DNA from: Amyelois transitella
Taxonomy: Eukaryota; Arthropoda; Insecta; Lepidoptera; Pyralidae
NCBI RefSeq assembly: GCF_032362555.1
Contig: NC_083508.1
Coordinates: 3,873,001 to 3,937,000 of the forward strand
Direction: 5' to 3'
DNA: 64,000 nt
Positions 11,809-46,929 of this stretch are shown in pieces (within the stretch, counting starts at the first letter, position 1; every line of letters starts with the position of its first letter). Position numbers and translations under genes: made by a program. The notes under the pieces are model-generated. The model searched no databases. It was not told the origin of the DNA and saw only the letters and a list, made by a program, of their open reading frames with translations.

Positions 11809-14800
11809 CTCGGTTCCTAACAGTTTCCAGTGAAAAATGAATACAGCAATTGAATAATTATGTTAACTAAGTGTAAATTTATGTTTGTTTTGTGTGATGT
11901 GTCCGGCGGATCCGAAGTGCTCGATTCCGCCGGTTGTGTTTACTTTGTATTCGAATGATTCTATGGGAGATCATGACGGTTTGTGACTTTATTTAACGGT
12001 GATATCCTTTCCTGAGATTATTTCAACATAATTTAATGCCATATTCGGTGATATTTTGTAATTATTTAATATATCACCCTAAATGTCTCTCGAGGCTCTT
12101 ATACTTTGCATACCTCTCGGTATTTCGACTACAGGCTTAGTCCTGTCACTAACAACTTGCCATTTTTTATTATTCACCAAGGATATTTATTATTTGTATA
12201 TATTTAAAAATGTGAAGATGTATTCCTAACTTTCTTTATTCAAATTACTAACCAAATACGCATGTAATACAAAATTTATCATAGTTGTATATATAAGAGA
12301 TAACTGCAATACTTGTAAATACACATTTTACCTACGTTGTTGTTAATTTGGCAACTCACCACTTTTTATAAAGTTAATACCGTAAACTTTCAAGACTGTA
12401 AATAACTATTTGTAGCAAATAGGTATTCAGATGTTACCACTTCCATGTTACCATTATTTTAAGGATTATACAGTTTAATATTCATTCAACTGTGCCAACT
12501 ATGAATTAATTGCTTGTATTGGCGAATCCTAGTCTCTGGAAAATACACACATACTATGTGAATAATACAAACTGGACCTGGAATACTAAAAATATAATCT
12601 GAAGTATTGCAACACCTGCTATGCTTTAGCAGTCAATACCTTTCTATAATAATATAAACTACTTTAAGAAAAATGTAAATTTTTATACCATTTAATAAAA
12701 TTTATAAAAATACGTTTAATTTTATTTGAGTTATCCTCACATTTTATTGACGATTTATTATTAATAAAAAAATGCGCTGCATTGTACCTGCACTTTTTGT
12801 AAATAATTATTATACTTTGTTTTCTGTACAAATAATATGTAAATATATCAATAGTAGTAATAAATTTAATAATTATATATTTTAGCAATGACTATTTCCC
12901 TACTACCGTGGAAGCAGTAGTGGGCTGTTAGATACCACCGGTGCACAGGATTCAGGTTGTACATTTATTTCTTCAATCTTTTGTAAATAATTAAAGTTTT
13001 TTTTTGCTAAACAGATTGCAGAATAATTAAAATCTACATCAATCTATAGTAATAAACACATTCACGTACTGGTTGCATGAAAAAAAGGTTGCACAAAATT
13101 CTCAGAACTCAATTCAAAATCGATTGCTAAGAGTGTCTAGAAATCAAATTTATGCAGTATGTTTTGTTTATATTTTAAATCCATTATAATATTCACTAAC
13201 ATTCCGTTTCTTAGATTATGAACCCCCTGGATGCGATATGTGATGTGAAAAGGAACGACGCCGTGTGCGTCAGTAATCTGAAGTCAGCCAAGCCGGTTGA
13301 TAAAGCTATCCTTCAGGAGAGACCTGACGTGAAGATCTTCCTGCCGTTCCGGTTCCACTTCTACAAGCCGAAGGATTTGTTTAAGGAAAATACTTACAGG
13401 AATTTCTTAGGTAAATTTTAAAAAGTTAATTCATGTTGTTAAAAATAGTGACAACTATTAAGACAGTTGCTTTGTCGTGTCTTCTATGCCCTTAGATTAA
13501 AAGGAGCTCGCACAGATATATATCAAAATGCCTGTGTGTAATCATACTTTAGTCTTTTTAGCAACCAATGTTTACTCCATCCTACTTTATTATTAATAGA
13601 TACACATATTCAGATAAAACTTGGAGCCATACCCCGCGCAATGCATTTTAAAATTTTAATGTTTTTTTACCTGCAAATCTCTTGATGCTTGTCAGTTTTT
13701 TAAATGAATCATTAAAATTCTATTTTCAAATTCCAGTGGCCCCAGGCGGCGACCACGTCATCAGCTTGGTCGACGAGATCTCATACAGCGCGCCGCCAGC
13801 TCCCCCCCTCTCTCAGATGCACGAGCTGAACCCTGAGCTATTCTGCAACGGAGATAACAGACCTGCGAACTGCCCCGTGGACTGCCGCTGCACACATATG
13901 ATCGATGTGCCTCTTAACTCGGTTGTGGAGATCGTGCTTGTTGATGAAGGTGAGAATTTTTTGAAAACTCCACTAGTCTTCACTGTCTTAGGCAGGTTGC
14001 CAGAATATAAAATGTTTCGACCGTATCAAAATATGAACAATATAATAACACTAAAAGCGATGAATAAGAAATGCTTTAACTTAATAATTATCACTTTTTC
14101 TAACATTTGCCATGAACGAAATGGTTGGACAAAGTTACCCTATTTAAGTCACAGATTTACATGAAGATAAATAAATTAAGAAACAATACATGCCTGTTAT
14201 ATTCCTGAATAACAGACGAATAGGAACTATTACTTACTATATCTTATTTATTTTAGTGCAATCACCGAATCTGTCTCATCCTTTCCACCTCCACGGAGCG
14301 CCATACAACGTTATCGGCATGGGTCGCTCCCCGGACAAGAACATTAAGAAAATCAACCTGAAACACGCCCTGGACTTGGATAGAAAGGGTCTACTTCATA
14401 GACAATACAACCTGCCTCCTTTCAAAGACACGCTGGCAGTGCCCAATAATGGATATGTTGTTTTAAGATTGAAAGCAGATAATCCCGGTAAGAAATATAA
14501 ATATGTAACCATTTGTTACCATAGTTTTTATTGTTACAACTCTAATAGTGAGATGTATAAATGGAAGGTCTAATCGCATCTCAGTGTCAAATTGCATCAC
14601 AGTCGGTCCTATTTTTGGGTTTATTGATCAGGCACAAAAACAAAAAAAAATCCCTTTACAATGTTGATTTGGAGGTTCTTACATCATATAAATCTTACAT
14701 TAATTTCGCTTACATAAGTTATATGAAAAAGCATATAATTAACACCTAATTATTTCTTTCGTTACAGGATATTGGTTATTCCACTGTCACTTCATATACC

Positions 14801-17283: not shown

Positions 17284-20200
17284 ATGAATTTTATAGGAAT
17301 TTTAGTGGTGATTATATCACAATGTAGTATAGCACTAACAGGTAAGTGAACATATAATTTGAATAATGAACACAACATAAACTTGAAATAAACGATAACT
17401 ATAGTTATGAATGTGGATGAAGCGAAGGAAGTATGCAGAGATCGCGGCAAGTGGAATGAGGTATTCTCTGCCTACCCCTCCGGGAAAGAGGCGTGATTTT
17501 ATGTTATGTTAAACGATAACTAATAAACATCCATAAAACAAACCTTTTTTCCTATGAGTAAAATTATAAAGTGAAGTCTAAAGGAAATGATCTATGTTAA
17601 AAATGGAAACCTCGGTTCCGCAGCATAGCAGCTGGGAATCAGCTAATATTGTAAAGATATTAATCCCGATATACATATTTTATATTCTTAGCAACATCAA
17701 ACCGCGCAGACATGGGTTTGGGCAGAATAGTGGGTGGCCACGAGGCCAAAGCCCACGGTTATCCCTTTATGGTGTCTCTTCAGCTTCGATTCCTTTGGGT
17801 GCGAGCGCATTTCTGTGGTGGAACTCTGATCAGTGACAGCTGGGTGAGTGAAATTCTAATTTCCTCTAAGTTCTATTACTAAGTACGTATAATTTACGTG
17901 AGTCAACGATCATATGGTTGGTTGTGTCAGGAAGCGCCTCCTGTATGAACTCCGCAAACGTTGCAGAAAATTCTAACTCATTTAGGATCGTGGTGACATA
18001 TCCAGTTGCCTAAACATACAGGTTGCCTTAGGATGTATTCTCCTAACGTAACATTATCAATTACGATACAAACTAATCTACAGGATGGGATAGGATTTGA
18101 ACCTTGGCCTCCATGCGCATCCCGCATTTTTCTTCTTAATATTAAAAACAAATTGACGTCAACAAGTGATTTCATATTGATTTTGTTTTTGTATTCAATT
18201 TAACTCTAAAACTAAATATTGTTCAGATTCTTACTGCTGGTCACTGCATAAAAGGATCTTGGATTTTATACCTGCTCGGTATAGATGCCGTGGCCGGAGC
18301 CCACGATGTGGATTTCCCTGGTCCTACTGCTCAGATTATAAGAATTGCTGAAAGGATACCACACCCTGAATATAAAGGGTAAGAAAATTCACTCTCTTGC
18401 ATTACAATGCCACCAAAGATATGAGATTCAAGTGATCATTTAATATGCTGTAAAAGTTGTAGAAATGGTTTTACGATCGGGGACTTTCAACGAGTCTTCT
18501 TTTTTCTATTTGTAACCTAATACAACATACCTACTTATTTTGAGGAGTCAAATAGTCTGTTTTAATTGTGATCTTGATATTTCTTCTTCTTTTATGTATA
18601 AATCTCTTTGTGGTGTAGTCAAGTCAAATAGCGTTCTCCATTTTCTGTTAGTCCACCTTTGTTCAATACGATAATTAATCGAAAAATAGTCATTCATGAC
18701 AAAATAAAAAAGGACTAGCCTTGAAGTAGTGGGCTAAGGGCATTTGTATCATAATAATATGAAATTATAAAAAGAACAAGAGGAATATTATAATAATCTA
18801 TAATAAATTTATATACCTATAATTTTAATAATCTTCACATTCCAATCTTCTCACACCTATATTTCTTTAATTTAATATCTATATTTTCAGTGACATTGGT
18901 CCACATGACATAGGACTAGTAAAAACAAAACACCCGTTCCAGTTCACCAAAGAAATTCAGCCTATCCAGTTAGCTATGGACCCTATAATTTACCCTTCAC
19001 TTACACTCATCGGTTGGGGTGAATTGAGGACCACTTGGTTCTTCCCAGCGTTACCAAGTAAACTTCAAGAGGTCAAGCAAGAATACCTACCGCATGAAGG
19101 TATGCTTTACAATAAACCCCTAAAAGCATCCTTCTACAATCGTCTCTTCTTCGTCGTGATTATTGTACAATCAATAGTGGTTAATCAATCCTCTGATCTG
19201 ACGTTATTCATTCAGGAATTCTTAAAAAACTCTCCAAAACTATGAAATAGGATATTTTACACCATGTAAAAAAAAATATAAAAATGCACGTATCTTATAG
19301 ATTTTGTAAAAAATAAAAGAAAAACATCGATCATTATTCATAAAAGTGCAATATGGATTTTATAATTCAATTTAAAAAATCCTCTTTTTTAATCTGTTCT
19401 TCAAAAGTCGAAAACGCTATCCGCCATGTTGGGTACTGACGTGACGTCATACTTTTAGTAAACAAATATCGAATCGAAAACATATTGATGATGTCAGGCT
19501 GTTTATTTTGAAATTTTAAAATTTCTATCACGTTTTTGGGTTTTTACTCTTTAATAATTTAATAGAATCATGGAAGACGGTTTTGTGAAAGCAGACAATA
19601 TAAATCTACCGAGGATTAATACGTTGATGGTTTCTCATTTTAATATCACTTGGCAGTGGAATCCACAATTTTTCTGGTGTTTTTATACTTGTATTCTTGC
19701 ATTCAGGAACAAGACACCAACAATATGTATTGTAATTCATTATTACAAAAATCTTTTTACTTTAGTCTTACGTAGAGCCGTATTGTTTACTAAAAGTATG
19801 ACGTCACGAGTCAAAACAGCATGGCGGATGGCGTTTTCGCGCGAAAATACAAAATCATAAATAATAAATCGTTTTTAGAGCACTTTTCGGCTTCAAAAAA
19901 TTTTAATAAAAATTCTATAGGTATAACACAGTCTCAGGATTGATTTAAAACAGTTTTCAAAAAAGAGTGTAATAGCCTATTGCCATAATCATGTGCATAG
20001 CTACTTCAAATAAATGTTGGCCGATAATACGAAATAATTTTAATAAATTTACTTGTAGACAAATTTTGTAGATTGGCCTTGCCTCAAAGTTAGACTTATG
20101 TAATTGGATACATCATATCCGATACTTTATTTTATTATCAATGGTTAAAAGGAAAAAATCCCAGTTACTCAGAACCTAGGTGAATCAGAAAAAAAATCAT

Positions 20201-20607
20201 TTCTTGTTATCTTGATCAGACCGGGGATCGGTATTTATTATTATTTACTCTCTTTCACAGCATGTTACAAAGCTGTTGATGGTCTACTAGGATTTGGCGA
20301 GACCAATCCTCTGGTAGAATATGCAAACATTTGCACTGGGCCCATAACCGGTGGCATTGCAGCATGCAACGGAGACTCAGGAGGTCCACTCATAGAGTAT
20401 GTGCCAAAATTGAAACCAGTCAATGAAACTGCCGTTCAAAATGGACTTAAAGAAATTAGAGATGAAGAAAGTATTGACTATGTGCCTGTCATTTTAGGAG
20501 TTGTGTCATGGGGAGTAACGCCGTGTGGTGAAGAAGGCGCTCCTACAGTTTTTACGAATGTTACAGACAACATGAAGTTTATAGTAGATACTACAAAAAT
20601 AAAATGA
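17284..20607 (+). CDS. Secreted S1-family (chymotrypsin-fold) serine protease
   Basis: Five exons, 17284-17341, 17692-17843, 18227-18378, 18891-19099 and 20261-20607, join in frame to 305 aa. Residues 1-19 are a hydrophobic signal peptide on their own exon, followed by a short propeptide ending at R31 before IVGG, the usual activation site. The catalytic triad is complete: H76 (TAGHC), D127 (HDIGL) and S230 (GDSGGP). Six cysteines match the C42-C58, C168-C182 and C191-C220 disulfides. The S1 pocket is not trypsin-like: the residue at chymotrypsin position 189 reads Ala and position 226 reads Thr, suggesting small or hydrophobic substrates (inference). Between GGPL and VVSWG there is an unusually long charged loop (about 40 residues, with a sequon NET). 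Substrate unknown; digestive or haemolymph roles both remain possible. The last intron (19100-20260) carries an inverted-repeat element. AATAAA lies directly before the stop codon. Confidence 0.9.
17403..17510 (+). repeat. Interspersed repeat family 2 copy in protease intron 1
   Basis: Contains the characteristic blocks 'gaatgtggatgaagcgaagg', 'gtatgcagagatcg', 'ggcaagtgga', 'ctctgcctacccctcc' and 'gggaaagaggcgtgat'. The same blocks recur, on one strand or the other, at 2064, 28735, 29549, 39690, 40512, 41848, 52508, 56642 and 60249. Confidence 0.75.
19246..19983. mobile_element. Inverted-repeat (TIR) transposable element in protease intron 4
   Basis: The clearest arms are 19410-19463 and 19785-19839, which are imperfect reverse complements over about 54 bases (shared blocks 'atccgccatg', 'tgacgtcatacttttagtaa'). 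Weaker complementarity continues outward to 'aataggatattttacac' at 19246 and its partner ending near 19983 ('gtgtaatagcctatt'), giving an element of roughly 740 bp. It lies wholly inside the intron. It contains an open frame at 19570-19860 that begins [18 protein letters not shown] cannot assign it. This looks like a non-autonomous DNA transposon, or a deletion derivative. Exact ends and target duplication are not resolved. Confidence 0.65.
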
Positions 20608-21143: not shown

Positions 21144-24100
21144 TTAATTCAACAAGACATCAGGTGGCCTGAAGCTGCCACATTTAGATAATAAACTTGT
21201 AATGGTCTTGGGCAACGTCTGGGGAACATTGATGAGCACAGCTGCAGGTAAAGCCTGCCCACAGGATCGGCACTCCAGCAACCAACTACCTCCTTTGTCG
21301 ATTTTCACACGAACAATAGTATAACCTTTATTTTGTACTACTATAGTGTCCTTTATTGGTGGGGTTATAAGATTTCTGTAAAACATAAAGAGATGATTCG
21401 TAAGTTTACAGTTTAACTTTATTACGACTTTCTTTACCTTTATTAATGAAGCAACTGAATGAAATTACCCTAGACAATAATGTTTGAATCACAGCCATTA
21501 CTGACCTGTTAATTTTGTGCTCCGCATCAAGATTATAGAATTCTTCCTTCGAAAGAGGTTTGTTGTCAGCATTCTGCCCGGTAGCCACCACGTACATTGG
21601 GTATCCGTGCAGATGGAATGTGTATGATTCATTGCTACCAAATATAAATCCTAAAAATATGTATTTTTTTTTTGTAAAAATATATCGGCAAAGTACTTAA
21701 CTATAGTCTTTATTATAAATTAAAGACTGAAAGTGTTTTAAGGACATAAATATACCCAATTTCGCGGTGTGTGGACCCCGGCACTTAGAATAGGACGACC
21801 CCATCATTTCCATGGATGTCGTAAAAGGCAGCTAAAGGGGATTCATCTAGTGGATCTTTTACCATGAATCAGATTTCATGAGGTTTGTTTCGTGTAAAAA
21901 TCTGAATTGCCTAATCCAAGATCATGAATAAAATGTGCGAAAGCAAAAGAAATTAAAATAATGATAGTTCAGTCACATGACAAGATCACTAACCTTCATT
22001 CACCAATGCTATTTCAAGCAGCTCTCCCTCAAACGCCTTCAATATTTGTAGGCACTGTGGGTCCTTATCCCTGGTCTCTTCACCCACGTAGCACTGTGAC
22101 TCTGTCTTCACGCCCCGAGGACTTAGAAGGATCGGTGAGTTAGGGTAAAGGAAATTTTTACCGTTGATTTGGACTACACCGGTATCTTGAAGTGCTGGAA
22201 TAGTAAGATACGTAATAAGTTTAAGGTTTTAAACTCATAGTGCAAAGTTACTTAGAGCGCACAAAATTCCCTAATATCCATGAATAAGCTTTTGATAAAA
22301 ACACGGAAATAAGACTGATTTTTTTAATCTTAAACAAATATTGTCTTAATATATAACATATCTATGTTATATATAGTTATAGCACTTAGCTTTCTAACAG
22401 TGAAAGGATTTTTGAAATCAGTTCAGTAGTTTTGAGTTTATTCGTTACAAATAAACAAGAATACAAATCTTTTCTCTATTATATATGTAGAATATTATGC
22501 CAGTTTAGTACTTACATAGGGACGCTGGAAAGAATGGTCTCTTCGGGATAGCATCACTGATGTATCGGAAATCGTTGTCAGTCTCCTTGAACTTTATCAC
22601 GTTCCTGTCAATTCCCAAGTAGACGGGTCTAATTTTCTGATGGGTTGATGAATCCTGAAGAGAGTCTAACTGCTGACCGTAGACAGGGGGTGAAAGATTC
22701 GGCTCCGATACCACAGAATTCTGAAATATCAATATTTCGCTTTCATTATTAAAGCCTTTTTTCTTTTTTAAACAGGTTAGTCTTTATTTGGTATTTTTCG
22801 ATTCGCGTGAACAGACTTCAGAACTCGCAAGATCCACAAGGTCGCTAGAAATTTTCACTCGAGGCAAAAAGTCATAAATGAAAAATATTTAAACTAAGAA
22901 ATTTCTCCCAAACCTGTTGAATTCCAACACATAAAGTTATTTTTATTTGCATAGCTTTCGCCCTTAGCTTGAATACGCGTAAATGATGATTTTTTACCCT
23001 ATTCCGTACTCTGTTAGCAAGTCCGTTAACCGTGAAGAGGTAACAAACAAACTTGCTTTCACATTTATAATATTAGTATGTAAACTCGCTTTCCAATTTA
23101 TCGCAGTTATCATGATGATGAAGCTAGCCATGATTTCTCACTAGAATATGACCGCAAATTGCTAGTGCGAAGTGCTAAATAACCTAATGAAATATTGCCT
23201 TAGCCGGTGCCAGCTACTTCAGTCCCCGTGATAAGATAACCAAGAAAAAGACTTTACTCAGGATTCTTCTTTAAGGCGGTGGGTTAACAACCTGTCACTA
23301 CCTAAATCTCAATTTCATCACTTAACAAACCTGACCATTTAAACTATCTGATGCCGATTTCATTCTTTTAATCTCTTATCTTGATGTGTTCCCAACAGGA
23401 CCTACAATTACTTTTAATTTCAATCTTACCAGATCATCGTGAAGCATGGCAGTGTAATTGAACCCGGAGTAGATCAACATAGTGTTCGTAGACAGACCAG
23501 CGCACGCGCCGGTGCCCCGAGCATTCAGCCAATAGCCGCCGACTTCCTGCGAAGCCCGCACTACTACGTCCATCCGCTCTCCTGTGTTTGAGAAAATGTT
23601 GCAATCAGATATTTGCATGTGAATTATTATTTCGCATTTATCGCAGAAATCTATCGCTGTTTCGCTTTTTATTATGACGTGAAATGGGACAGCGATAGTT
23701 TGTATAGCGATAGTGATAGCTCCACAAAAGGGATAAGTACCTACTTATACGAATGTCACTTCAATTTCTATGATGACGAACGAACAGTTTATTTTAAAAC
23801 ACAGGCAGATTTCTAAAGATATCTACGTACGAAACATTTTGCTTTACTCTATTACACCTCTGCATAACAGATCGAATTTAAAGTAGAAATTTAAAGTTTA
23901 AATTATTTGTAGCTACAGAAATTTTACAAATATGAAGTATTGTTGTTTATCTGGTAATTTTAATTTTAAATTCTACACATTAACTGCGCATATTGGTGTA
24001 ATGTGGAGATGCCATGAATATAATGATTCGCTTGATCTTAATTAAGTTTAATAACAGCACTTAAAAATAACTAAACTAAAAGAAAGTGAAATACAAACAA

Positions 24101-27100
24101 ACGAAACCGGTGTAACGTGACCTTAAACTTGGCTGCCCAAACATATACAACAGCGGCCGCCTTTCTCCTCTCGCCGGGGACAAACGGAACGGAACAAATA
24201 AATACACCTAAGTACGAGTATATTTTACGGACTTTGTTATAATATTGCTATTTTCAATTCCAACCAGCTTTATTGGTAAATATTTTGAATTAATGATTTT
24301 GTGTTTTGATGCACAACTAGATAAGTTTTTATACAGTGATGACTTGTAAAAATATTTTCCAATTTTTTTGTAAATTTGGAAAATATATTTATTCCTACTT
24401 TTTGACTATTTCAATATAACGAATATTTCGATATATTTGGTTGTTTTAAAACAAAATAGCAATCTATTACAAATTTAATTGAGTAGATAAGAATCGGTTT
24501 AATCTTATGGGTTGGGTGGAAAAAAATAATAATTTTGAAAATAGAAGACAGTTCATTTCTATGACAGTTGCTTATTACACTATAAAATTATCATTTTAAT
24601 CTTGAGACAGTTTTTTATCTGTGCATAGTGGGTATACCATGATGCTGCCATTAAGCATAGTATCGTCGGATTACTTTCTCCATACTTTCACTCTCTCGGA
24701 GGCTTGGCCCTCGTTATATGCCAGCCTCTTAGAAAAAATGACTTTTAATAGTGTCAAGTCGTCTGCTTCTAAGTTGTTATGTCTGTCTTACATAGATTTG
24801 TAGGCAATGGACACGTTTTGAAATTTTCATACTTGAAGAAAAGATCAAAAATTAATTTACTTAAAAGTTCAAAAATTCTATTTATACTTTTATTTCTTAA
24901 GGAAATTTCCACAGCATGTTTGAACGATGAAATGATGAGCATTCCATTGAAAAAAATGGCAAAATGAGAAATTTAAATTTACTTTCCCATACGGATTGAT
25001 CGGTCTCAGGGTCGAAAGAAAAAAAATCGTATTTTGCTTTATGTTTTTATGCTGTATAAATTCAAGTTGTTTACGACATAATTGAAGTGTTAGAACTTTA
25101 CTATACTTAATTAAAATTATATAAAAAAATTATCGACACATTTCATCAAGGAAATTTGAACTACGATGGATAACTGTACAACGGAAGAAATCTCAGTAAT
25201 TGAATTCGTGAAATTTCTCTATTATGGTTATGAAATAGGTTTGCCTCAGCTATTATTATGCAGTAGAATCGGCGGTGTGGTATCTCACAGAGTAAAATTA
25301 GGACTTTTGTTAAATTTTATAAGAAACCGCATTTTCAATTAGTATAATACGAGTAATGCATGCAAGGTACTCGTAGAACTTTAAGTTCCGACAGTTGAGA
25401 ACAGAATCGGCAAAATGTATACAATAACGAAAAAAAAAAATACTCGTATAACAAATTACAGATTGAGCTAGCCGCAAAGTAAATTCGAGATTTGTGTTCT
25501 GGGATACTAACTCAAAGATATTGATATAATTATAAAAAAATACTTATATACAATAAACAAACATTTAAAACCAATCGGAAATATTTGATTTTCGTCAGTC
25601 ATTCCAATATTCGAATCCGGTCACAGACAAGCACACTACAGCAGCTCGCACTTCGAATGCCGACAAATTAGCGAATATCATTGATCTTACCTGGATACAG
25701 TAAAACGCTCTTAGCAGCCAGTGGTTTGACAGGTTTCCCGTCGGTCGCAATCACAAGCATTTCGTGTTGGTCAATGCTGACCACTACAGGACACTCGATA
25801 GCTATTGCGTTGATCAACCGCAGTTTATAAGCGAAGCCGGGAATAACGAATAACCTGGAAATGCAATACATGCCCATATCATTTCGTTATCCCGTACGCA
25901 GTAGACATAGTCACAAGACATGTTCAGCTTGATGGCAGTAATGGAAAATGATCAATCAATAAATAAAAACAAATTGATGATTCGTTTTTTGGTAAATCTA
26001 TTTGGTTATTTGTTGAGCTATCAATTAAAGCATCTGAAATTAAAGTACACTCGTAAAATACAACTATTTATCAATTCATGACTTAGGATTAAATTCGGCG
26101 ACAAAAATATGAAATATATCAGAATTTGGCTCGATTCACAGAGCGTACAAATATTTGCACAAATACTGGTCCTCGGTATTGTTCTGGGTGTGCTAAAGTA
26201 CTTAATTTATGATTTGCCCATCAACTATAAAGCTCATAGTCAACTGTGACGAACGTTCATTTATTTTGTAAGTTTTGTATTTACAAAATCTAACTCTATC
26301 TTAATAGATCATGCGACTCATTATAATGATATTACAAACACTTTGACTATTAACACCATTTAAATTACCTAAACTAGCACTGTTCCCATGAATTTTATAA
26401 TATATGATATAATTACCTACTTTTTGTGTAAAAATAAAGATTATGAAAATGTATACTATAATATATCTAAACGTGGCATTTCTGTCTTTTCAATTCTATC
26501 TTCGTTATACGTATGTATTCTTCCATAAAAATCTTGTTAAAACATTTTTATACTTACTTAAACACATCTTCTTCATACTCATTAATGACTAGAGCATTCG
26601 GGACCTTTCGACCCACATCTTCTAAATTACCGGTGAGTAGTTCTGGGAATTTTGCCGCAAACATAATAGTGTTCTCATTACTTCTGTCATAGTCATACAG
26701 AGCTGAATGAGGCTCTAATGGCTGGGGCTGGTTAACAATCAAAGATCCATAAACGCCATCACTCTGGTGAGCAACTAAAACAATGTGATTTATCAATGTC
26801 AAGTTATATTCATTAACGTTGCTGTTATCGTTTCTTTAACAAATGGGTACGTGATTTTTGTCTCAAATAAGTTGTCATTTTTTTAGTGTAGTCACGTATA
26901 TTTCCATTCATGAATTCTAAAAGATTCAAGTCTAAAGCGAATAAGGTACGAATGGATATGAAAATATTGCAAAATTTATTTTTCAATGTACCTAAAATAT
27001 TACCTTATCCAGTTAAAACTAATATTCAACACATGCGAGTCATAAACCTCAAAGAAAAGATTTACAGCAGTACCAGGAAATATAAGTTAACAAATACACA

Positions 27101-28137
27101 ATGCCAATACAAATCAATTTACTATCGACATACCTGAATCAGCATGATAAAAATAAGTCCCAGGGGATGAAGCAATGAATGCATACTTATAAGTAGTTTC
27201 ATAAGATATAGGACACTGCGTAACCATAGGAACTCCATCCATATACGGCGTTCCTTTCTGTTCTATACCATGCCAATGTATACTGATATCTTCATTGGGT
27301 ATTTTATTCTTCACTTCTACAACTACTACATCATTTACGCAGACGTTTATTGGAGGTCCTGGTGTCATCCCATTGATGGATATGGATGTCCGACCATTTT
27401 CTAGAACTGTTGGTTCTACGATGAAAGAGTAGTGGCATCGCCTTGGTTTCACGTTGAATTTACAAGGTCGGTAGCACGATGCATCTGTGAAATTAATTCA
27501 TTTGTTATTGCTTATAGGTAGTTGTTAGTAGAAGAATCGTAAAAGCAATTTGTTTACTTCAAAATAGCTGACGGGAATACCAAAATGAGAACCCTACATA
27601 AATAAGCGAATAAACCTATTATGATTTTGTCATTTTTGCCAAGTATATCTATCTCCTTCATTAGTTTTTAATCACTGACGCAATAACTAAGGTAAGGTTG
27701 ACTTGCTTTTATTGATACATAGTTATATATAAACTTGATGGAAACTTGTCTATGTGAATAGATAAACCTATTTCGATTCATTTATTTTTCTAATCTAAAT
27801 CTTTATCTTTGGATTGGTTGTTAACAATATATACTTCATGGAAATCGGCTCAGCTGTTTAAAAAGTGCAAGGGGTAAACAAGTTACCAGTTTTAGTACCC
27901 ACTCAAACATATCGCATTTACTTAAGTTTAGTTCAAATTGCTTATTTTTCTGCATAGTGAAATATGGTGAGAATAATTGTAAATTTACTACCATTTAAGC
28001 TTTACAAACTTACCGGAGCTTTTTGTAGTATCCTCAAAAAGTACGTGCGCATTTGCCGGCGCGAAGCTTTCCAAAGACGCTTTTCCGTTGTTGCTTATAC
28101 TCGTGATCATTAACAAAAAACATACTTCCAACTTCAT
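21144..28137 (-). CDS. MCORP: Multicopper oxidase-related protein (copper-site-deficient laccase homologue)
   Basis: Nine minus-strand exons join in frame to 596 aa: 28014-28137, 27134-27484, 26558-26774, 25691-25854, 23430-23581, 22516-22720, 21994-22194, 21506-21650 and 21144-21375. The start at 28137 gives a hydrophobic N-terminus ([14 protein letters not shown]), a plausible signal peptide. The cupredoxin order of a laccase is kept, but copper sites are broken. HWHG is intact (H111, H113) and H155 is kept, but its partner is D157 (YHAD where Lac2 has WHAH). HPFHLHG has become YTFHLHG. The C-terminal HCHxxxHxxxxM has become ECRSCGQ, so three His and the axial Met are gone while the Cys stays. 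Five of ten ligand His are lost, so oxidase activity is not expected. This fits the MCORP family described in insects, found to lack oxidase activity in Tribolium yet needed for viability and ovary development. The frame is intact across all exons, arguing against a pseudogene. The large introns hold repeat fragments at 21764 and 23260. Confidence 0.88.
21764..21848 (+). repeat. 5' fragment of SINE-like family 1 in MCORP intron
   Basis: Blocks 'cggtgtgtgg', 'ccccggcac' and 'tttccatggatgtcgtaaaa' match the 5' half of the family. It is truncated after about 85 bases. It lies antisense to the host gene. Confidence 0.65.
23260..23331 (+). repeat. Internal fragment of SINE-like family 1 in MCORP intron
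   Basis: Contains 'ggattcttctttaaggcg', 'aacaacctgtcacta' and 'atctcaatttcatca', the middle of the family consensus. Both ends are missing. Confidence 0.6.
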
Positions 28138-29681: not shown

Positions 29682-32198
29682 TTAAAGTTTGACCACGGTA
29701 ACGAATTTGAACATAGCCTGCAGTGTGGTTGCGAATGTGTAAATGTTCACGGGCACTATATCCGCCGCCAGAAGTTCCACCGGCTGCTGAGCCTGACGAA
29801 GCATCACGAACACCGCCTTCCTCTCATTTACCTCAAAGCGTTCCCAACCACACCCATATACCGCTCTTTCAAATAACTCTGATGCATCAATCAACCTCTG
29901 TCCAAGGAAATTGTAAAGAAAGAAAACTACGAAACAATATAGCAAAATTGGCATGAAAGGCAGCCAAGATTGAATCGGTAAGTAGAAGAAGAAACTGATG
30001 CAGACAGCGTTACCGAAGAAGTTGATACCGATTGGGACACTATAAAGAGTTTTCAAATTACCGACAATGTCTAACAAAAGTACATGCCGTCGAATCATGA
30101 ACGGCAGCTTTTTCTTGACATGTTTGTTGTTCTTGATATCAAAGTGCTTGGCGCTTGTAAAACTGAGCATTTCGTCTGACATCATCTGGTACATTACAGC
30201 GGTGTGACCTATCAGGAACACCAGCAGGGCTTGGAAGTTAAGCACGACTGCCATTATAGAAAGTTCTTCGGCAAGGAGAAGAGTTTGACAGATCTCTCGA
30301 TATGGGCTTGAGTTTAGTGGGAATCCTGAAAATTTATAAAATCCATTATATGTTTTTTGGTTCTAAACACAGAAAACTAAAAGCAACATTTTTTCAATAT
30401 TATATATTGCCGAGAGGTAACATAGCCAGTAAATTTGATGAGTACCTTTATAGAATAAATGATAAAGAGTCTCAGAGGACGAAATAGAGAATCTACACCT
30501 TAACTTACCAACACAAGGCCGCATGCTATACTGACTACTGACATCAATTCTAGCAGGAATGTAAATGAAAGCAGCGTTTGAGCAGTTCATGAAGTAAAAC
30601 GTTAATATCACGACTTTAATGAGAAATAACGCCCTTTCGTGTTTTTTTAATAAGAACTCTGCCGTCCTCGCCATCTCATCTGATTCACGGACTTTACGTA
30701 CTACTTCTTTTATGAGGGGTCTGTAATAAAAATATAGAATCTATGAAAATATTTTTTTAATTATTTATTTACATAGGTGACATGATAAATATGCATCTAT
30801 CTAAATAATTAAGAGGACACTGGCTGTTTGACTTTTAGATATAGAGATATGAAACTCCATAAACCAAAAATGATTAAGATTTATGGAGAAGTAGGAATTA
30901 CCCGAAATTTCCATGGGAACGGAAAAAAATGATTTTTTGTTGAATGCGTGCCCGCAGCTCCTGGTGTACTCTATTGATACTATCTTCATCTTATATTTTA
31001 GAGCCAACTCCTATTAGTTGAGTTCAGTATGTTTACTTTTTCTCTCTATTCCAAAAAAAAAACAATCCTGCAGCACTATTATTTTTGAATAACTTACCTT
31101 TTCGTAAGAAACCAATAGCTGTTATTGGCAGTGAAGCATAGAATGGAGACACTGACCAAATTCTGGACGAGGTCTCCGACATTCTCAGCATCCGAAGTCC
31201 AGAACACCACGCTGCCTGCGCCGTACACATACATCAGCAAGCTAATATGAATGCACCAGAATGACACTGGAATCAGAATTGTTCATTATTCAGTCCAATC
31301 AGAATTAAGATACCCATTTCTACTAACAAGTATTTACTTGAATTTTATCGTATGATGGTATCATTTTTAGTTGACGTTTAAGAGATTAGCCAACATTACA
31401 ACATAGCCAACCTTTGATTTTTTAAATATAACTTGCATCTTGGTGGATACCTTTCTGGAGAAAATAAAATAAATTAATTTATTATTCACAAGTTTTTTAC
31501 GAAACTTTCATAAAAACCTCGTAATTGCCGCTCAACTAGAAATGCATATAAACGTGGTCTTTGCATTTATGTTACTTTTAGAAAGCCAATACAAAATAGA
31601 AAAAGAAATGACAGTACCTTCAACATAATTGCACTTTTCCCTTCGAAAGCGCAACACACAATAAAACTATACACAAATTGATCAGTAATAAAGTTATTAT
31701 TTCAATGTTTTGATTTTATTCTGTTGACTTTTATTCTCAAGTCTGGCAAAAAATATTTTAGTGATACTTTACATGCCATGAAAAGGTATGGTTTTATAAT
31801 CAGCTGCCTTACTGTAATGAAGAAGGAATCCAAACCTTCCACTGAGTAAGAAGTTTGATACGATTTTGAAGTCTTTTAGTCGTCTTCAAAACAAGATGGG
31901 ATCTACTAGGTATACTTCACCAAAATTTACGAATGTTCATGAGGCAATTTTTATTAGGACTTTCTATTGTAACCAAAAAATAAAAGGAAAATAAAACGTA
32001 TCCCATGACAAGGTTCATGATTAGCCCGCCCTACTTCCAAATTCTTTTATTCGCAATATACAAACCCTGCACTTTATCCTTCAAAATTGAAAACCCAGCG
32101 ACGGTCGGAACTGCCATTACAATCTGCAGGAGATTTTCACAGCTGTTTTCAGTGAGACATGTTTTCATATAATTCAATCTCTTTTTAATACTCAACAT
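29682..32198 (-). CDS. Insect odorant receptor (7tm_6 family)
   Basis: Four minus-strand exons, 32066-32198, 31098-31266, 30509-30720 and 29682-30325, join in frame to 385 aa, a normal length for the family. The long last exon carries the conserved C-terminal part: hydrophobic segments, then the motif region around GQRLIDASELFERAVY, an aromatic/basic stretch, and a final TTLQAMFKF helix before the stop. Exon 31098-31266 holds a first hydrophobic segment (SFWCIHISLLMYVYG), and 30509-30720 a helix followed by ILTFYFMNCSNAAFIYIP. The first exon is inferred: Met at 32198, phase match, donor GTTTGT after 32066, and a sequence (LLQIVMAVPTVAGF) fitting the region before TM1. Insect ORs form ligand-gated cation channels with Orco in antennal neurons; the ligand cannot be told. 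The three downstream exons are well supported, the first moderately. Confidence 0.82.
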
Positions 32199-34482: not shown

Positions 34483-36229
34483 TCAGCTATCTCCACTAAC
34501 ACTCCTCACTCGTCTGATCAACTCCTCAACTCTTTTGTATGGACTTTGACCCCTTTCCTCGCTTACATCAATAAGATAGGGGCCGTTCGATTCCCTGCCT
34601 TCAGGAGTATGGTGGCCGCTTGAGCTATCTGTAATTCTATTCAGAAATGGCTCCACATCAGGCACCGCGGGTGCCGAAATACTCACAACTCTGCTTGCCT
34701 CAGCAGCCGCCGTTTCAGCTTCTTTCTGCCTGAGCCAAACTGGAGAATTAACGTATACTTTTGGTCGCTCCCTCAGAGCGTTACATCTCTCTAACGCTGG
34801 CCTCCTGACGGGGACTGGCGGTCTGTATGCTGCTGGTATTGGTACTCCTCTTCCAATAATAGTACAAAGAAGTCCCTTAAGAGCGGCTCGGAAGTCTTTC
34901 AAATGGTACGCGTAGAGTAATGGATTAATCGCAGAGTTTAGGTGGGAGAAAATGATACAAAAGTAAGTGAGAGAATTTGGGATATCCAAATCAGGCTTGA
35001 ACGTTTTGATAGCGTTGATGGTATAAAGAGGTATCCAACAGATGATGAAGAAGAAGACGATGATAGCGAGGTTTTGCGTCGCTTTGACCTCGCGTTTCTG
35101 AGCTGCCCCCAAGACACGGAGCATGGTGCCTCCAGCCATACGTCCTCGGCTACCTTCTACCGTCATCACCTCACTCATCTGAAACACGAAAAGAAATTAT
35201 GAAAGAACTTTGGAAATATATAAAGAAATTTAGAGAGAAATTTTACATATATCACATGTTTAATTTTTGGTTGTGGGAATGATCGGCCATCGGATTTCAG
35301 GGAAAGGACCATTCTGAAATTCTTCCTATGTATTTCGTAGGACACTAACAACTAGTGTATTATAAATCCCAACACAAGATTCGCTTTAAGCAGACAGCCG
35401 ACCGTAAAATTTAAATATTTTCACGTGATAATTTCGAAAATGAGAAGGAATAGTATTAAAAACTTTGACATGTGAGCGTCACTTGTGCACACTTTACATG
35501 AAATTACCGAGCGCATCCGTCACCATTTGATTCAGCAATAACAATGCCATATCGCAAATGTGACGCCTGGGGCAATTTATATGTCTACTCTGACAAATAG
35601 GTAACACTAGCTTTTACTCGTATATTCGCACGCTCGAGTTTTACAAAAAAAAATCTTATTTTATTGGGAATATCACGGCAAGTATTGTTTTTACTGAGAC
35701 AAAAAGTACCCTATGTCCTTCTTTAGACATTTAATTATAAAATTCAAGAAGACGACTGTTCAGTAATAACACGAGAACCCACAATAAAACAAACCAACAA
35801 TTAAACTTTCTTCCGTATTTATAATATTAGTTTAAGAACACTATTACGACGCCACTTATAAAACAATCAAACAAACATCTAATTCCAATATGGGTTTCCC
35901 AAAAGTTGAGAAGGTCGGGCGAGACTTGCTTTGTGTAAAAACCTTACTTACCCAATCTAGGATTCTGGTCCAAAGGCATTCACTAAACACTTCCATAAAA
36001 GAATTCTCGTTACAAACCTGTTTAACAACGACTCTGTAGATATGAGCATAGAAGCCAGCCAGAAGCACACTCGGGGTGACAATTGTGGCGAAGTACAGGA
36101 ACAGCAGGTAGTTGTAGTCCATGACTTCCACGAAGTAGCACCCTGGAGCAGCCTCCACGTCCGCGTGCCAGCCGAACAGTGGGAGTAAACCCACGAATGC
36201 GCCAGACACCCAGCAAACGGAGATTATAA
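34483..36229 (-). CDS. AdoR: Adenosine receptor-like GPCR, 3' exons only (TM4 to C-tail)
   Basis: Two minus-strand exons, 36018-36229 and 34483-35178, join at a codon boundary. The first encodes TM4 (VIISVCWVSGAFVGLLPLFG), extracellular loop 2 with its cysteine, and TM5 ending in HIYRVVVKQ. The second encodes the third loop, TM6 with the CWxP motif (CWIP), TM7 with NPLLYAY (NPxxY class), and a long tail of about 140 residues. The LPLFGW motif after TM4 and the EVMDYNYLLFLYFATI run resemble insect adenosine receptors as I recall them, so the name is an inference from pattern recognition. These receptors couple through G proteins to extracellular adenosine at the plasma membrane. The 36229 exon starts with two bases of a split codon, so exons for the N-terminus and TM1-3 must lie upstream (above 36.2 kb). 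I did not find them in the window. Confidence 0.8.
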
Positions 36230-36253
36230 CTGAAAAGTACACATGAATTGAAT

Positions 36254-36510
36254 ACATACATACATATGGTCACATCTATATCCCTTGCGGGATAGATAGA
36301 GCCAATAGTCTTGAAAAGACTGAATGGCCACGTTCAGTTATTTGGCTTAATGATAGAATTGAGACTTAAATAGTGACAGGTTGCTAGCCAATCGCCTAAA
36401 AAATATTTCCAAGTTTGTAAGCCTATCCCTTAGTCGCCTTTTACGACATCCATGGCAAAGAGATGGAGTGGTCCTATCCTTTCTTGTATTGGTGCCGGGA
36501 ACCACACGGC
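36254..36510 (-). mobile_element. Full-length SINE-like family 1 copy with target site duplication
   Basis: Runs on the minus strand from 'gccgtgtggttcccggcacc' at the high end to a 'tatgtatgtatg' tail at the low end, about 257 bp. It is flanked by a perfect 13-base direct repeat 'acatgaattgaat' at 36241-36253 and 36511-36523, the mark of target-primed retroposition. No protein-coding frame runs through it. I saw no clear tRNA-type A and B boxes, so the promoter source is undetermined. Confidence 0.85.
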
Positions 36511-43371: not shown

Positions 43372-44526
43372 TTAATAAACAACAAACGCAGCAATAATAA
43401 CTGTCAATACGGCGAACGTAGGAATATTTTGCACAGCGGAATTTTTACGCAATGATTGTTCTGCATATGCTTGCAATAAGCCACAATCCACTGACTTTCG
43501 CATGTTTGATGTAGGGGATGTCTTTATCACGTAACACTTCATCTTGGGCGTTACCGCAATAGGCGCGCCTTTCACTTCCAAAGCATTGACCGTCGTCGTG
43601 TTTGTTGTTGTCGTCGTGACAGTGACTGATGACGAAGAAGTACTATTAGCTGCATTATCAGTAACATTAGTCATCACTAGTGTTCCATTTGGTAACATGA
43701 CTTCGCCCCCCGTCGGAGCTACCGGGTTTGTCATATTGACAATTGTAGTGTTGGTCACTGTTGTTGTTACAACGGTCATATTGTTGCCCTGAGCATTTGG
43801 AGCTACGGTGGTCGTTGCCGTGTCTTGATATATATAACTGGATATAATCTGACAATCAATTCTCGTTTCCTCGTAATCTCCATTATCTTTCCTTATGCCG
43901 AATTTACAAACTTCACCTGGTTTGGCTTGGTAGGTCTTATGACTCTGGCTGTTTGCATACACGCCGCCGGCAAGGACACCAAGATTTAACAACGCCAGAC
44001 CAGCCAGTAGTGTACCGTATTTACTTCCTGAATCCTTATATTGGTAGACATATGTAGGTGGAGCACTACGATATACAGGGTAGTGGACTTGGGTACCAGA
44101 CGGACTAACGTATCTTATTTGTTGAGGAGGACTGTAATGGTAGTGATTATTTATTGTCGTATGAGTCGTATGAGATGTATGCGTCGGTGAATTGGGATAA
44201 TTATTATTCGGCTTGTAGCCTGGACTTGGGTATCCGTGGGTTTGAGGTCTCGAACCTGATCCTGATAAACCACCCGAGGATGGGTAAGAGTGTCCTCCCC
44301 CTCCGCCTGATAGCCCCCCGGAACTTGGATATCCATGACTTGGAGGTCTGTGACCGGTGCCGGAAAGACCTCCAGATGACGGGTATGAGTGATGGCCTCC
44401 ACCTGACAATCCACCTCGGTTGCTAGGGTAACTATGTCTGCCTCCAAATCCTCTAGCACCGATGATCGGATCGAACAAAGCGATCACGAAAAGAACACAC
44501 AACAGTGTCCGGGTATGTTTAAACAT
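43372..44526 (-). CDS. Secreted Gly/Ser/His/Tyr-repeat, four-cysteine protein with C-terminal hydrophobic tail
   Basis: Single open frame of 384 aa; I do not recognise a named family. Residues 1-23 form a signal peptide (hydrophobic core around LLCVLFVIALF). Residues 25-100 are low complexity, with a YPSSGGLSG-type repeat about four times. Residues 110-165 are His/Pro/Tyr-rich. Residues 171-190 are a Gly-rich hydrophobic segment (GTLLAGLALLNLGVLAGGVY). Then come two cysteine pairs, C207/C225 and C331/C348, separated by a Thr-rich stretch with seven N-glycosylation sequons (N249, 259, 264, 280, 287, 294, 309). The protein ends in a hydrophobic tail (FAVLTVIIAAFVVY), suggesting a GPI signal or tail anchor. 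Exactly four cysteines remain in the mature part. The next gene (46333, opposite strand) shares the cysteine layout. Poly(A) signal candidate: 43048-43043 on the minus strand. No intron is needed, but an upstream non-coding exon cannot be excluded. Confidence 0.85.
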   Translation of the reverse strand: MFKHTRTLLCVLFVIALFDPIIGARGFGGRHSYPSNRGGLSGGGHHSYPSSGGLSGTGHRPPSHGYPSSGGLSGGGGGHSYPSSGGLSGSGSRPQTHGYPSPGYKPNNNYPNSPTHTSHTTHTTINNHYHYSPPQQIRYVSPSGTQVHYPVYRSAPPTYVYQYKDSGSKYGTLLAGLALLNLGVLAGGVYANSQSHKTYQAKPGEVCKFGIRKDNGDYEETRIDCQIISSYIYQDTATTTVAPNAQGNNMTVVTTTVTNTTIVNMTNPVAPTGGEVMLPNGTLVMTNVTDNAANSTSSSSVTVTTTTTNTTTVNALEVKGAPIAVTPKMKCYVIKTSPTSNMRKSVDCGLLQAYAEQSLRKNSAVQNIPTFAVLTVIIAAFVVY

Positions 44527-46292
44527 TGTAACTTTCCTTATAACAACACTTCACAACACTAGGGGAAAGCGATGGCGTTGTTTACGGCACAAAAACGCAC
44601 AGCACTCCTACGCATACGATCGCTGCTTCGTGAACTAAAGTCAATAAAGTGGGACGAGGGCAGGCGGTGCACAGTCGGTGCAGCTGTCTCACATTTGTGT
44701 TGCCATTACTAAAATTATATATGAAACAACTATTTCTAAATTTAGTTACTTTATACGTTAGAGTACTTTTACAAAAACAATCTAAACAAACCAATAAATT
44801 AAATAACGTGCGCCATGATAAAAATATAATAAATATCTCAAATTCTGCTCCGCCATCTTCATAAAATCCTCTTTTTACTGCCATCTAGCGGAAATCAAGT
44901 AAACGATCACCATACTTCACGATGCTTACAACTCGGTTGATAATTTATATTATTTTTCTTCTGCCTCTGAATTGAAAATTCAATTTAATACAAATTAATT
45001 GTAGTTGTTAATACAGAATGATAGGTCAACTCAACAACTCTACACGTGCATGACATTATACACCAATATTGACGTGAAGCGATGCAAATGACATTTAAAA
45101 AAGAGGTTATATGTTTATTTATTAGCATAGGTATTTTTTACAGAATTTTAAAATAAATTTTTAAAATATTTCCGTGAGTGATAATTTTAAACGCCAATGA
45201 ACGCCATCTTCATAATAGTACTCGAAAAACTAGAATGGCTCATTCGCGCGGGAAAATATATAAAATCAAAATATTTTCATATAGCTGCTTGACACGTTAC
45301 CTTTTCTGCTCTTTATGTGAATTAAAATCAAATTTAAGTTCTTTATTTTGAAACTTAGTAAAAATTTATCTCAAATAATGACAGCAATTAGTCCAAAGCT
45401 CACTGAGAAAACGACGTCCAACAACCAAAGTTTCCATAAAGAAACTGTAGGCAATTCCAACAGTAATAGGAATAATATAGATTATTCCGAGTTTCACTGA
45501 ATCTCTTTCTTTGGTAGTCGTTAAACGGAATCAATAAAAAAAATCAAAAGCACTATAAAACTACCGCATTATTAATTTTAAAAGTTGGGTTCCTATCAGG
45601 CAAAGACTGCAATAGCCAAAGACAAAATGTGACAGAATTTTTAACGAGAATGGCCTTTTGATATGGCTTATGATTTTAAATTATGACATTATTATATATT
45701 GTATTGATATTCTTTTTCGCTGAGCGTGACTACGTAATCGTGTAGCTAGGTCACAGGCAATAACTTGCTTGACCTTTTCATAAGACTTTTTCTGATGCAC
45801 AGTAAACAATAATAGTTATTTTTTTAATTATTAGCTCATTACCTTTAGTATGCGTGTTTATTATTATTAACAGAAAGGAGAAAAATTCTTATAACTACTT
45901 AAAATTAACTTGAAATGCATTTGGTGATAATACTACATAAGTATATATAAACCAAATGAGTAAATTGAGTTTGCTCAAATTTAAATACCAATTAATTATA
46001 TAAATAATGTTTTAATACAAAATGGGTTGAAAGTAAACATGATTTTTATAATATATATTTTAAACATGAGTTTAAAATACCTAAACCCGATTGCAAAAAA
46101 GTTAATTATTGGCAAAGAATAAAACAACCAATAAGTAATGCAATGATAGCATCCGTTCACGTGGCTCAGTGGTGACAACAATGAGTAGTAAATTGCAATT
46201 TAATAATCTTTTTCATGCTATAATCACGTTTCGTGAAGCAGTAACTTAGTATTGTCTCATGGGTTCGGCCGCCACGGGAAACGCTCTCGCAA

Positions 46293-46297
46293 TCAGT
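46293..46297 (+). promoter_or_regulatory. Candidate initiator (TCAGT) of the 46333 gene
   Basis: TCAGT matches the arthropod Inr core; its A at 46295 would give a 38-base 5' leader. There is no TATA box or DPE match at the expected distances, so this rests on one pentamer. Confidence 0.3.
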
Positions 46298-46304
46298 TCC
46301 AATC

Positions 46305-46331
46305 ATGACGCTGCGCAGCCGCAACATTTAA
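46305..46331 (+). CDS. Short upstream ORF before the 46333 gene
   Basis: ATG to TAA encodes 8 residues (MTLRSRNI) and ends one base before the main start codon. If the leader begins at the nearby TCAGT it would be translated first, and reinitiation or leaky scanning would be needed for the main frame. Whether it is translated is unknown. Confidence 0.3.
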   Translation: MTLRSRNI

Positions 46332-46332
46332 A

Positions 46333-46929
46333 ATGTTGCACACTATAATACTCCTTGTTGCTCTAGTAGAAATCTACGGACAAGCAGCCCCAAGTGTCAA
46401 AGAAAAACCGATCAAACCTTACATGTTCCCGATACCTTTTGAACTACCAAACAGAAACGATAAAGCAGATCAGTGCTACATAAGAATAGAAGATGTGGAT
46501 ATTACTGAAACTCTAGTAGTGAAGTGTTATATAGCTCATGATTTCCTTCGAAGCTACATCCATGATTATAATGCTATCAAAATGACTGAAGATGACGTCA
46601 ACGTCAGTCTGTGGAGCGAGCGGCCGAGAAATCAAGAAGATACCATCCCAAAGATTCCCGAAAATGACTTTAAAGGCGTCAAAGATTGGAAGACGACCAC
46701 AGTTTTGGATCCTATTACGGGGATGAGGTTGTACGTCACCCAAAAAGCAGACTGCAGACTAGTGATGTACAGCAGAGAAGGCATGTCGAATTACAATGTT
46801 GACTGTGCCCCGTTTCTATACTTCGTGAATGACAGAATTAGTGGGAGCGGTGTGTTTTTACAGGGTGAAATTTTGCTGATTGCCATTTGTTTTTTCCTCA
46901 TATCGATCACAAGTCCGATATCAAATTAG
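46333..46929 (+). CDS. Secreted four-cysteine protein, diverged paralogue of the 43372-44526 gene
   Basis: Single open frame of 198 aa, no named family recognised. Residues 1-19 look like a signal peptide (LHTIILLVALVEIYGQA). The mature part has exactly two cysteine pairs, C48/C65 and C141/C158, each with 16 residues between; one further Cys lies in the C-terminal hydrophobic tail (residues 174-194), which resembles a GPI signal or tail anchor after the small residues SGSG. One sequon is present (N90). The second module matches the divergent neighbour: TTTV, then VTQKADC, then an SN motif and VDC, against TTTV, VTPKMKC, SN and SVDC there. The neighbour's repeat domain and Thr-rich spacer are absent, so this is the short form. 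AATAAA at 47038-47043 ends the transcript after a short 3' UTR. Confidence 0.85.
   Translation: MLHTIILLVALVEIYGQAAPSVKEKPIKPYMFPIPFELPNRNDKADQCYIRIEDVDITETLVVKCYIAHDFLRSYIHDYNAIKMTEDDVNVSLWSERPRNQEDTIPKIPENDFKGVKDWKTTTVLDPITGMRLYVTQKADCRLVMYSREGMSNYNVDCAPFLYFVNDRISGSGVFLQGEILLIAICFFLISITSPISN

Follow-up and report, generated by a model that had tools for sequence, protein, structure and literature searches.

Two open reading frames, encoding proteins of 384 and 198 amino acids that we call P1 and P2, lie on opposite strands of the window, the whole stretch of 64,000 nucleotides of Amyelois transitella DNA analysed here (Table 1). Both are intact, as an earlier note on this DNA had described them, and stop-to-stop frames of at least 206 codons number four in the window, against none in 30 first-order Markov copies of it. 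Hydropathy places a hydrophobic stretch at both ends of each protein, and the open frames suggest that each gene is a single exon, as had been proposed. The two start codons are 1806 bp apart, and a shared core promoter is therefore not obvious. Counts of TATA, TCAGT and sigma-70-type patterns (the last being a bacterial model) were uninformative with regard to a bidirectional promoter.

Table 1. Features of the P1/P2 locus and of the surrounding host gene, in positions of the window.
Feature	Position	Strand	Basis or remark
P1 ORF, 384 aa	43372..44526	-	One open frame; full-layout member
P1 signal peptide, residues 1-23	44458..44526	-	Hydropathy; cleavage site judged by eye
P1 N-terminal HSYPSSxGLSG repeats, 4 matches, residues 31-89	44260..44436	-	Motif match
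P1 conserved tract, residues 165-184	43975..44034	-	Alignment with P3-P6; not seen in P2
P1 cysteine module A, C207-x17-C225	43852..43908	-	Cysteine pattern and family profile
P1 Thr/Asn-rich linker between modules	43537..43851	-	All 7 N-x-S/T sequons, residues 249-309
P1 cysteine module B, C331-x16-C348	43483..43536	-	Cysteine pattern and family profile
P1 hydrophobic C-terminus, residues 362-384, GPI-signal-like	43375..43443	-	Hydropathy
P2 ORF, 198 aa	46333..46929	+	One open frame; short member without repeats or tract
P2 signal peptide, residues 1-17	46333..46383	+	Hydropathy; by eye
P2 cysteine module A, C48-x16-C65	46474..46527	+	Cysteine pattern and family profile
P2 cysteine module B, C141-x16-C158	46753..46806	+	Cysteine pattern and family profile
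P2 hydrophobic tail with C186; GPI-signal-like or one transmembrane helix	46864..46914	+	Hydropathy
AATAAA polyadenylation signal, 3' of P2	47038..47043	+	
Open stretch with adenosine-receptor coding exon 2 (TM4-5)	35856..36269	-	Acceptor CTTTTCAG; low edge of 52-kb host intron
Open stretch with adenosine-receptor exon for TM6-7	34483..35196	-	

The cysteine partners and their spacing of 16–17 residues are as the earlier note had given them, with 17 residues in module A of P1 and 16 in the other three modules. Its count of exactly two mature cysteine pairs holds for the pairs themselves in both proteins, whereas mature P2 has a fifth cysteine, C186, within its hydrophobic tail; the fifth cysteine of P1, C10, lies inside the signal peptide. 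Likewise, the proposed alignment of the second modules stands for TTTV, VTxKxxC and VDC, but not for the SN dipeptide, which starts 8 residues ahead of the final cysteine in P1, as against 6 in P2. Both genes, together with a further family member (P4, below), are nested in one 52-kb intron of an adenosine-receptor gene, whose exons were found on both sides of the three. Among the literature matches listed on genes nested in adenosine-receptor introns, none concerned this arrangement.

How far does the family extend? Four genes outside the window are paralogous to P1: P3 on contig C16, P4 and P6 on C4, and P5 on C29. P3 is its most similar member (44% identity in a full-length alignment; 38.8% over 338 amino acids in tblastn), and with the low-complexity filter off, P1 also finds P4 (E = 2e-18) and P5 (E = 1e-15). 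As a genome query, P3 leads to the same two (E = 7.8e-19 and 6.9e-13), and P5 leads to P6 (E = 1.0e-8). The family thus comprises at least six genes in this genome, apparently intron-less to judge from their coding regions, all six of which are single open frames. The full layout starts with a signal peptide and continues with a flexible tail of Gly, Ser, Tyr, Pro and His that carries the HSYPSSxGLSG repeats; next come a tract that is conserved and in part hydrophobic (TLLTGLALYNLG) and a pair of C-x16/17-C modules. By hydropathy, the C-termini of P1 and P3 are GPI-like, P4 ends instead in a likely transmembrane helix followed by a cytoplasmic tail, and there is no strong hydrophobic end in P5 and P6. 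The repeats recur in P3, P5 and P6, with no match in P2 and P4; histidine runs of 3–5 occur in the same three proteins, and none in P1 exceeds two. The tails vary in length and are rich in Tyr and His, the upper end of protein size being 840 amino acids (P5). Nor is the four-cysteine rule strict, as P4, P5 and P6 have further cysteines. The tract, which the earlier note did not mention, is the best-conserved part of P1 other than the cysteine modules and aligns across five of the six members (P1 and P3–P6); the modules align as well. It rises above a hydropathy cut of 1.1 only in P1 and P6; that of P3 lies under the cut and was recognised by alignment. Hydropathy reveals no tract at the corresponding place in P2, which therefore fits the family by its modules only.

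Searches of reference libraries brought no accepted match, in agreement with the earlier claim of no recognised family. Pfam scans at E up to 10 returned nothing for P1–P5 and, for P6, only a sub-threshold DUF7527 (E = 0.039; 13.9 bits, where the cut-off is 27). NCBIfam, whose models serve bacteria and archaea, gave no match at E up to 0.1, and the best E in the PDB was 0.13, the names of the matches being mutually unrelated and none of weight. No viral or prokaryotic relatives were confirmed. Single-sequence AlphaFold2 predictions, run with no alignment, were too poor to read (mean pLDDT 32.5 and 34.3 in two models). The literature covered, which takes in a minority of subscription journals, had nothing on such an insect family among the matches listed, as judged by titles and abstract starts, and a search by the letters of the tract gave no match in the same coverage.

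Does P2 truly belong here? In pairwise module tests with 2000 cysteine-fixed shuffles each, module B of P1 resembled modules B (p = 0.002) and A (p = 0.019) of P2, and module A of P1 gave p = 0.12 and 0.20 with the same two; modules A and B of P2 did not resemble each other (p = 0.94). The whole mature regions yielded p = 0.0165 under such shuffling. This pairwise similarity is modest by itself and becomes convincing only once the paralogues are added. Against a profile of the other five members, P2 scores 17.6 bits, above every one of 10,000 cysteine-fixed shuffles, and for that reason we count it as a divergent family member with neither tail nor tract; the best window frame apart from P1 and P2 reaches 5.3 bits. 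Leaving P1 out of the profile gives P2 17.8 bits (0 of 5000 shuffles as high), and in leave-one-out profiling of the modules each of the six members outscores all 5000 of its shuffles. Taken singly, the modules of P2 are weak evidence of membership: module A reaches 3.7 bits, a value matched or exceeded by 61 of 10,000 shuffles, and is outscored by three unrelated window frames at 7.2, 4.8 and 4.6 bits, and module B reaches 7.2 bits, matched or exceeded by 12 of 10,000. Similarly weak is the profile of P1 and P3 alone, with which 6 of 5000 shuffles reach the score of P2.

These results bear on how the two neighbours came to look alike. The held-out two-module profile, with and without P1, led us to reject the idea that P1 and P2 are not related and that these small secreted proteins agree in their four cysteines and local motifs by chance. 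This is now very improbable, despite the unimpressive pairwise p for the mature regions, the standing of P2 module A below unrelated frames, and a BLAST search in which P2 as query found itself as sole match. The paralogy that the earlier note had put forward is thus borne out by the held-out and leave-one-out tests; less so its history, an inverted duplication of one ancestral gene in which one copy gained or lost the repeat spacer. The two genes are indeed adjacent, divergent and housed in the same intron, and the six-gene tree joins P1 with the same-intron P4 (support 80/59) and places P2 beside the P1/P3/P4 group (51/0, that is, unsupported). Yet over the joined modules P1 is 58% identical to P3, on another contig, and 18% identical to P2, its least similar member; P2 in turn scores higher with a profile of P5 and P6 (13.4 bits) than with one of P1 and P3 (6.7 bits), different two-sequence profiles being only roughly comparable; and repeats are found in P3, P5 and P6 as well. 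A recent duplication as the simple story was accordingly discarded, and because of the repeats in those three members, P2 would be likelier to have lost them than P1 to have gained them. An ancient local duplication is possible, since no fork of the tree reaches the support mark and the branches, that of P2 included, are long, but local origin in general seems to us unlikely.

What, then, might these proteins do? The reading we favour, at slightly better than even chance, is that the family to which P1 and P2 belong makes secreted or membrane-anchored glycoproteins with a PrP-like surface mechanism, in which P2 is a Doppel-like partner. Family membership, the part order and the nesting of P1, P2 and P4 in one intron are established by the results above; secretion, disulfides, glycosylation, GPI anchoring, metal binding and the companion role are our inferences. 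The two cysteine modules would probably form two disulfide-closed beta-hairpins, and this domain, possibly GPI-anchored and glycosylated, would sit at the cell surface. From there, the disordered, presumably sticky His/Tyr-rich tail may extend outward, binding metal ions or partners in the matrix, with the tract acting as a hinge or docking site by analogy with vertebrate PrP. Without tail and tract, P2 could act on the same partners as a compact companion, by competition or by modulation. A role in structure and not in signalling is a tentative alternative to which we give clearly less credence, namely that the proteins help to build the matrix or the apical surface, as components of the cuticle, peritrophic or egg-coat type, their tails cross-linked or phase-separating and their cysteine domain serving as anchor. 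Insect extracellular matrix proteins often have repeat-rich, Tyr/His-rich tails of this kind, and P5 and P6 lack a clear membrane tail. Harder to accommodate are the Pfam result (five of six proteins without any match, the sixth with a sub-threshold one), a tract and modules that align across members whereas P4 has no repeats, and the complete lack of a tail in P2.

How close, finally, does the favoured PrP-like reading come to the prion family itself? On sequence grounds the likeness is one of analogy, not membership, because no family protein matches a prion model. In the accounts of PMC4207050 and PMC8704586, PrP is ordered as signal peptide, repeats, conserved hydrophobic segment, a domain with disulfide and N-glycans, and GPI tail. 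The same order is found in P1, and in P3 with its tract known from alignment; it is not found in all members, P2 and P4 being without repeat matches and P5 and P6 without a strong hydrophobic end. Almost all vertebrate prion genes have their coding region within one exon, according to PMC3203146, and the six insect genes are likewise single open frames. Against this, the domain of PrP is described as mostly helical and with a single disulfide, and the insect proteins have two short C-x16/17-C modules. Scanning all six proteins to an E of 10 brought up neither the Prion (PF00377) nor the Shadoo (PF14999) model of Pfam, and within the same limit the family profiles retrieved no PrP chain from the PDB. 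Searching this genome with the Prion model gave no match, and with the Shadoo model two sub-threshold stretches (E = 1.97 and 2.65, on C18 and C29) that do not coincide with any gene of the family; both searches are weak by themselves, as none of 14 control genomes matched either model.

Shadoo (SPRN), as PMC8704586 presents it, resembles the insect layout in that its repeat tail leads into a hydrophobic domain and a GPI anchor, and differs in being described as fully unstructured, whereas a cysteine domain is present in the insect family. With Doppel, whose gene PRND lies 16–52 kb from PRNP according to PMC4207050, P2 has in common that it is short, repeat-less and near a full-length paralogue; it differs in having no Pfam match, in a start only ~1.8 kb away from P1, with the two genes on opposite strands, and in being the least similar member. 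The prion-like ectodomain of LIV-1 ZIP transporters, present in non-vertebrates and marked by a CPALLY motif, is the proposed source of PrP in PMC3203146. ZIP genes are present in this genome, and several insect members have, by eye, leucines and an aromatic residue soon after the fourth cysteine; the exact CPALLYQ-type pattern had no match in the genome (one in the backwards control), a search that an intron-split or varied motif would escape. We take this link as a lead only. That insects own a prion-type family independent of vertebrate PrP, perhaps from an intron-less retrocopy of a ZIP ectodomain, with a PrP-like and an adjacent Doppel-like member in the adenosine-receptor intron, is the least probable of the ideas considered here. 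Prion genes are described as vertebrate-lineage only in PMC3203146, a paper of 2011. Should the likeness be superficial, the surface-protein family would still be one that the Pfam copy searched does not list. Should it go deeper, an insect family with the same part order and a tail-less neighbour would offer an independent natural test of what the repeat tail, hydrophobic segment and disulfide domain are for, in animals made useful for it by the ease of gene removal.

How is P2, the 198-aa protein encoded head to head with the 384-aa P1, related to its neighbor? Compared alone, the two sequences are suggestive of a relationship. We turn to a profile of the joined modules (the first and second cysteine pairs, A and B) of P1 and of its paralogues outside the window, P3 to P6, with P2 held out. 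Against this profile P2 scored 17.6 bits (single-sequence E 1.4e-7), a value reached by 0 of 10,000 cysteine-fixed shuffles (7892 scored; maximum 13.7); among 366 entries including P2, the top window ORF other than P1 and P2 gave 5.3 bits. Singly, both P2 modules were weak. A reached 3.7 bits, a score matched or exceeded by 61 of 10,000 shuffles and surpassed by three unrelated window ORFs (7.2, 4.8, and 4.6 bits); B reached 7.2 bits, matched or exceeded by 12 of 10,000, with the top unrelated ORF at 5.0. When each member was left out in turn, all six exceeded every one of 5000 shuffles, from P2 (18.7 bits) to P1 (75.6). P2 scored 17.8 bits from a training set lacking P1 (0/5000 shuffles as high), 13.4 bits from P5 and P6 (0/5000), and 6.7 bits from P1 and P3 (6/5000).

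Identity to P1 over the joined modules was 58% for P3, 26% for P4, 24% for P5, 22% for P6, and lowest, 18%, for P2. Together with the profile scores, this marks P2, as judged from sequence, as a diverged member of the family rather than a recent duplicate of P1. The paralogy proposed in the earlier note is thus borne out, P2 ranking above 10,000 of 10,000 shuffles, while its inverted duplication does not hold as a recent event. A six-protein tree joined P1 with P4 (80/59), then P3 (85/92), then P2 (51/0), with no fork passing the support mark and very long branches for P2 and P6.

Both genes of the pair are intact ORFs of the predicted lengths, and stop-to-stop ORFs of at least 206 codons numbered four in the window versus none in 30 Markov copies of it. 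The cysteines lie where they had been placed, P2 having an extra C186 in its tail; the supposedly shared SN dipeptide falls out of register in the alignment.

The window covers C4:3873001-3937000 of the source genome (327 Mb, 33 contigs), taken as lepidopteran in the earlier note; its odorant receptor exon is in keeping with an insect. In this genome, the C-terminal half of P1 matched P3 on contig C16 (E 1.8e-14 and 4.8e-10), whose full-length alignment with P1 shows 44% identity (38.8% by tblastn, over 338 aa). P3 in turn retrieved P4 on C4, the window's contig (7.8e-19), P5 on C29 (6.9e-13), weakly P6 on C4 (0.0188), and an additional stretch on C3 (1.31); P5 found P6 (1.0e-8) and P6 found P5 (1.3e-9). 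Genome searches with P2, P4, P5, and P6 gave no seventh member among the best candidates, which alone are scored, so that six is a lower bound. Searches of the viral and prokaryotic collections yielded no confirmed relative. P3 to P6 measure 315, 288, 840, and 519 aa (start codons of P4 and P5 picked by eye); all six genes consist of one open frame, with more exons downstream possible.

Positions of the features, on the window, contig C4, or local stretches (L)
Feature	Position	Strand	Remark
Adenosine-receptor gene in window	window 34483-36269	-	
Receptor, first coding part	C4:3961554-3962012 = L016:4754-5212	-	matches adenosine A2A receptor, PDB chain 3pwh_A, positions 7-118
Receptor, second coding part	window 35859-36269	-	3pwh_A positions 123-208
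Receptor, further part	window 34486-35196	-	3pwh_A positions 225-306
P1	window 43372-44526 = C4:3916372-3917526	-	384 aa, intact ORF
P2	window 46333-46929 = C4:3919333-3919929	+	198 aa, intact ORF
AATAAA 3' of P2	window 47038		
P4	L014:8660-9523 = C4:3945660-3946523, without stop	-	Cys-rich, Lys-rich tail replaces GPI-like end
Multicopper-oxidase (laccase-like) stretches	window about 8566-14573	+	partly Pfam (Cu-oxidase, 9149-9685 and 11401-11808), rest by eye
Multicopper-oxidase (laccase-like) stretches	window 23376-27497	-	by eye
Trypsin-like serine protease exon	window 20152-20607	+	Pfam E 1.7e-9
Odorant receptor exon	window 29685-30362	-	7tm_6, E 6.6e-19
Putative transposase, 430-codon open frame	L017:7887-9176	-	by eye; ~3.5 kb downstream of P5

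The first two receptor parts are consecutive coding exons separated by an intron of ~52.3 kb, since a GTAAGT donor at the end of the first, a CTTTTCAG acceptor just before the second, and a frame kept across the junction were read by eye. Inside it lie P1 and P4 on the receptor's strand and P2 on the opposite one. This nesting of intron-less genes suggests retroposition or local copying.

Each of the six proteins carries two pairs of cysteines in which 16 or 17 residues separate the partners; P4, P5, and P6 have extra cysteines. Before module A, P1 and P3 to P6 share a tract (consensus TLLTGLALYNLGR) that exceeds the hydropathy cut in P1 and P6 and is recognized from the alignment in P3 to P5. 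HSYPSSxGLSG-like repeats match four times in P1, twice in P3, five times in P5, four times in P6, and never in P2 or P4. All seven P1 sequons fall within the segment separating the two modules (residues 249-309), and P2 has a single sequon, at 90; those of P3 to P6 were counted as totals only. A hydrophobic C-terminal stretch ends P1, P2, and P3, with none of strength in P5 and P6. In P4 such a stretch precedes a polar end with a lysine run, as in type I membrane proteins, and is likely a transmembrane helix with a cytoplasmic tail. For the family we infer disulfides, glycans, and anchors. Structure predictions from single sequences (n = 2) gave unreadable models.

What might these proteins do? 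From tail composition (15 histidines in P1, 25 in P3, 32 in P5) and the prion analogy, the likeliest role would be that of a glycoprotein at the cell surface whose tail reaches outward and perhaps binds metal, with P2 as a companion that lacks the tail. The main rival is a matrix or cuticle role for the family.

Membership in the vertebrate prion family (PrP, Doppel, Shadoo) fails on sequence. With the cutoff set at E 10, Pfam scans of P1 to P6 listed none of the prion families, and two family profiles retrieved no PrP chain from the PDB, which contains such chains. Across the genome, the Prion model had 0 matches and the Shadoo model two sub-threshold stretches away from the family genes, both searches being weak alone because control genomes were silent in each. 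Judged on these searches and on the order of parts, the resemblance is one of analogy. In several members, leucines and an aromatic residue soon follow the fourth module cysteine, a faint likeness to the CPALLY motif of the ZIP ectodomain as given in PMC3203146; an exact CPALLY-type pattern had 0 matches in the genome. In the order of its parts, P1 is like PrP as PMC4207050 and PMC8704586 describe it. According to the same papers, Doppel resembles PrP without the octamer repeats and its gene lies near PRNP; its parallel here would be P2, repeat-free and close to P1.
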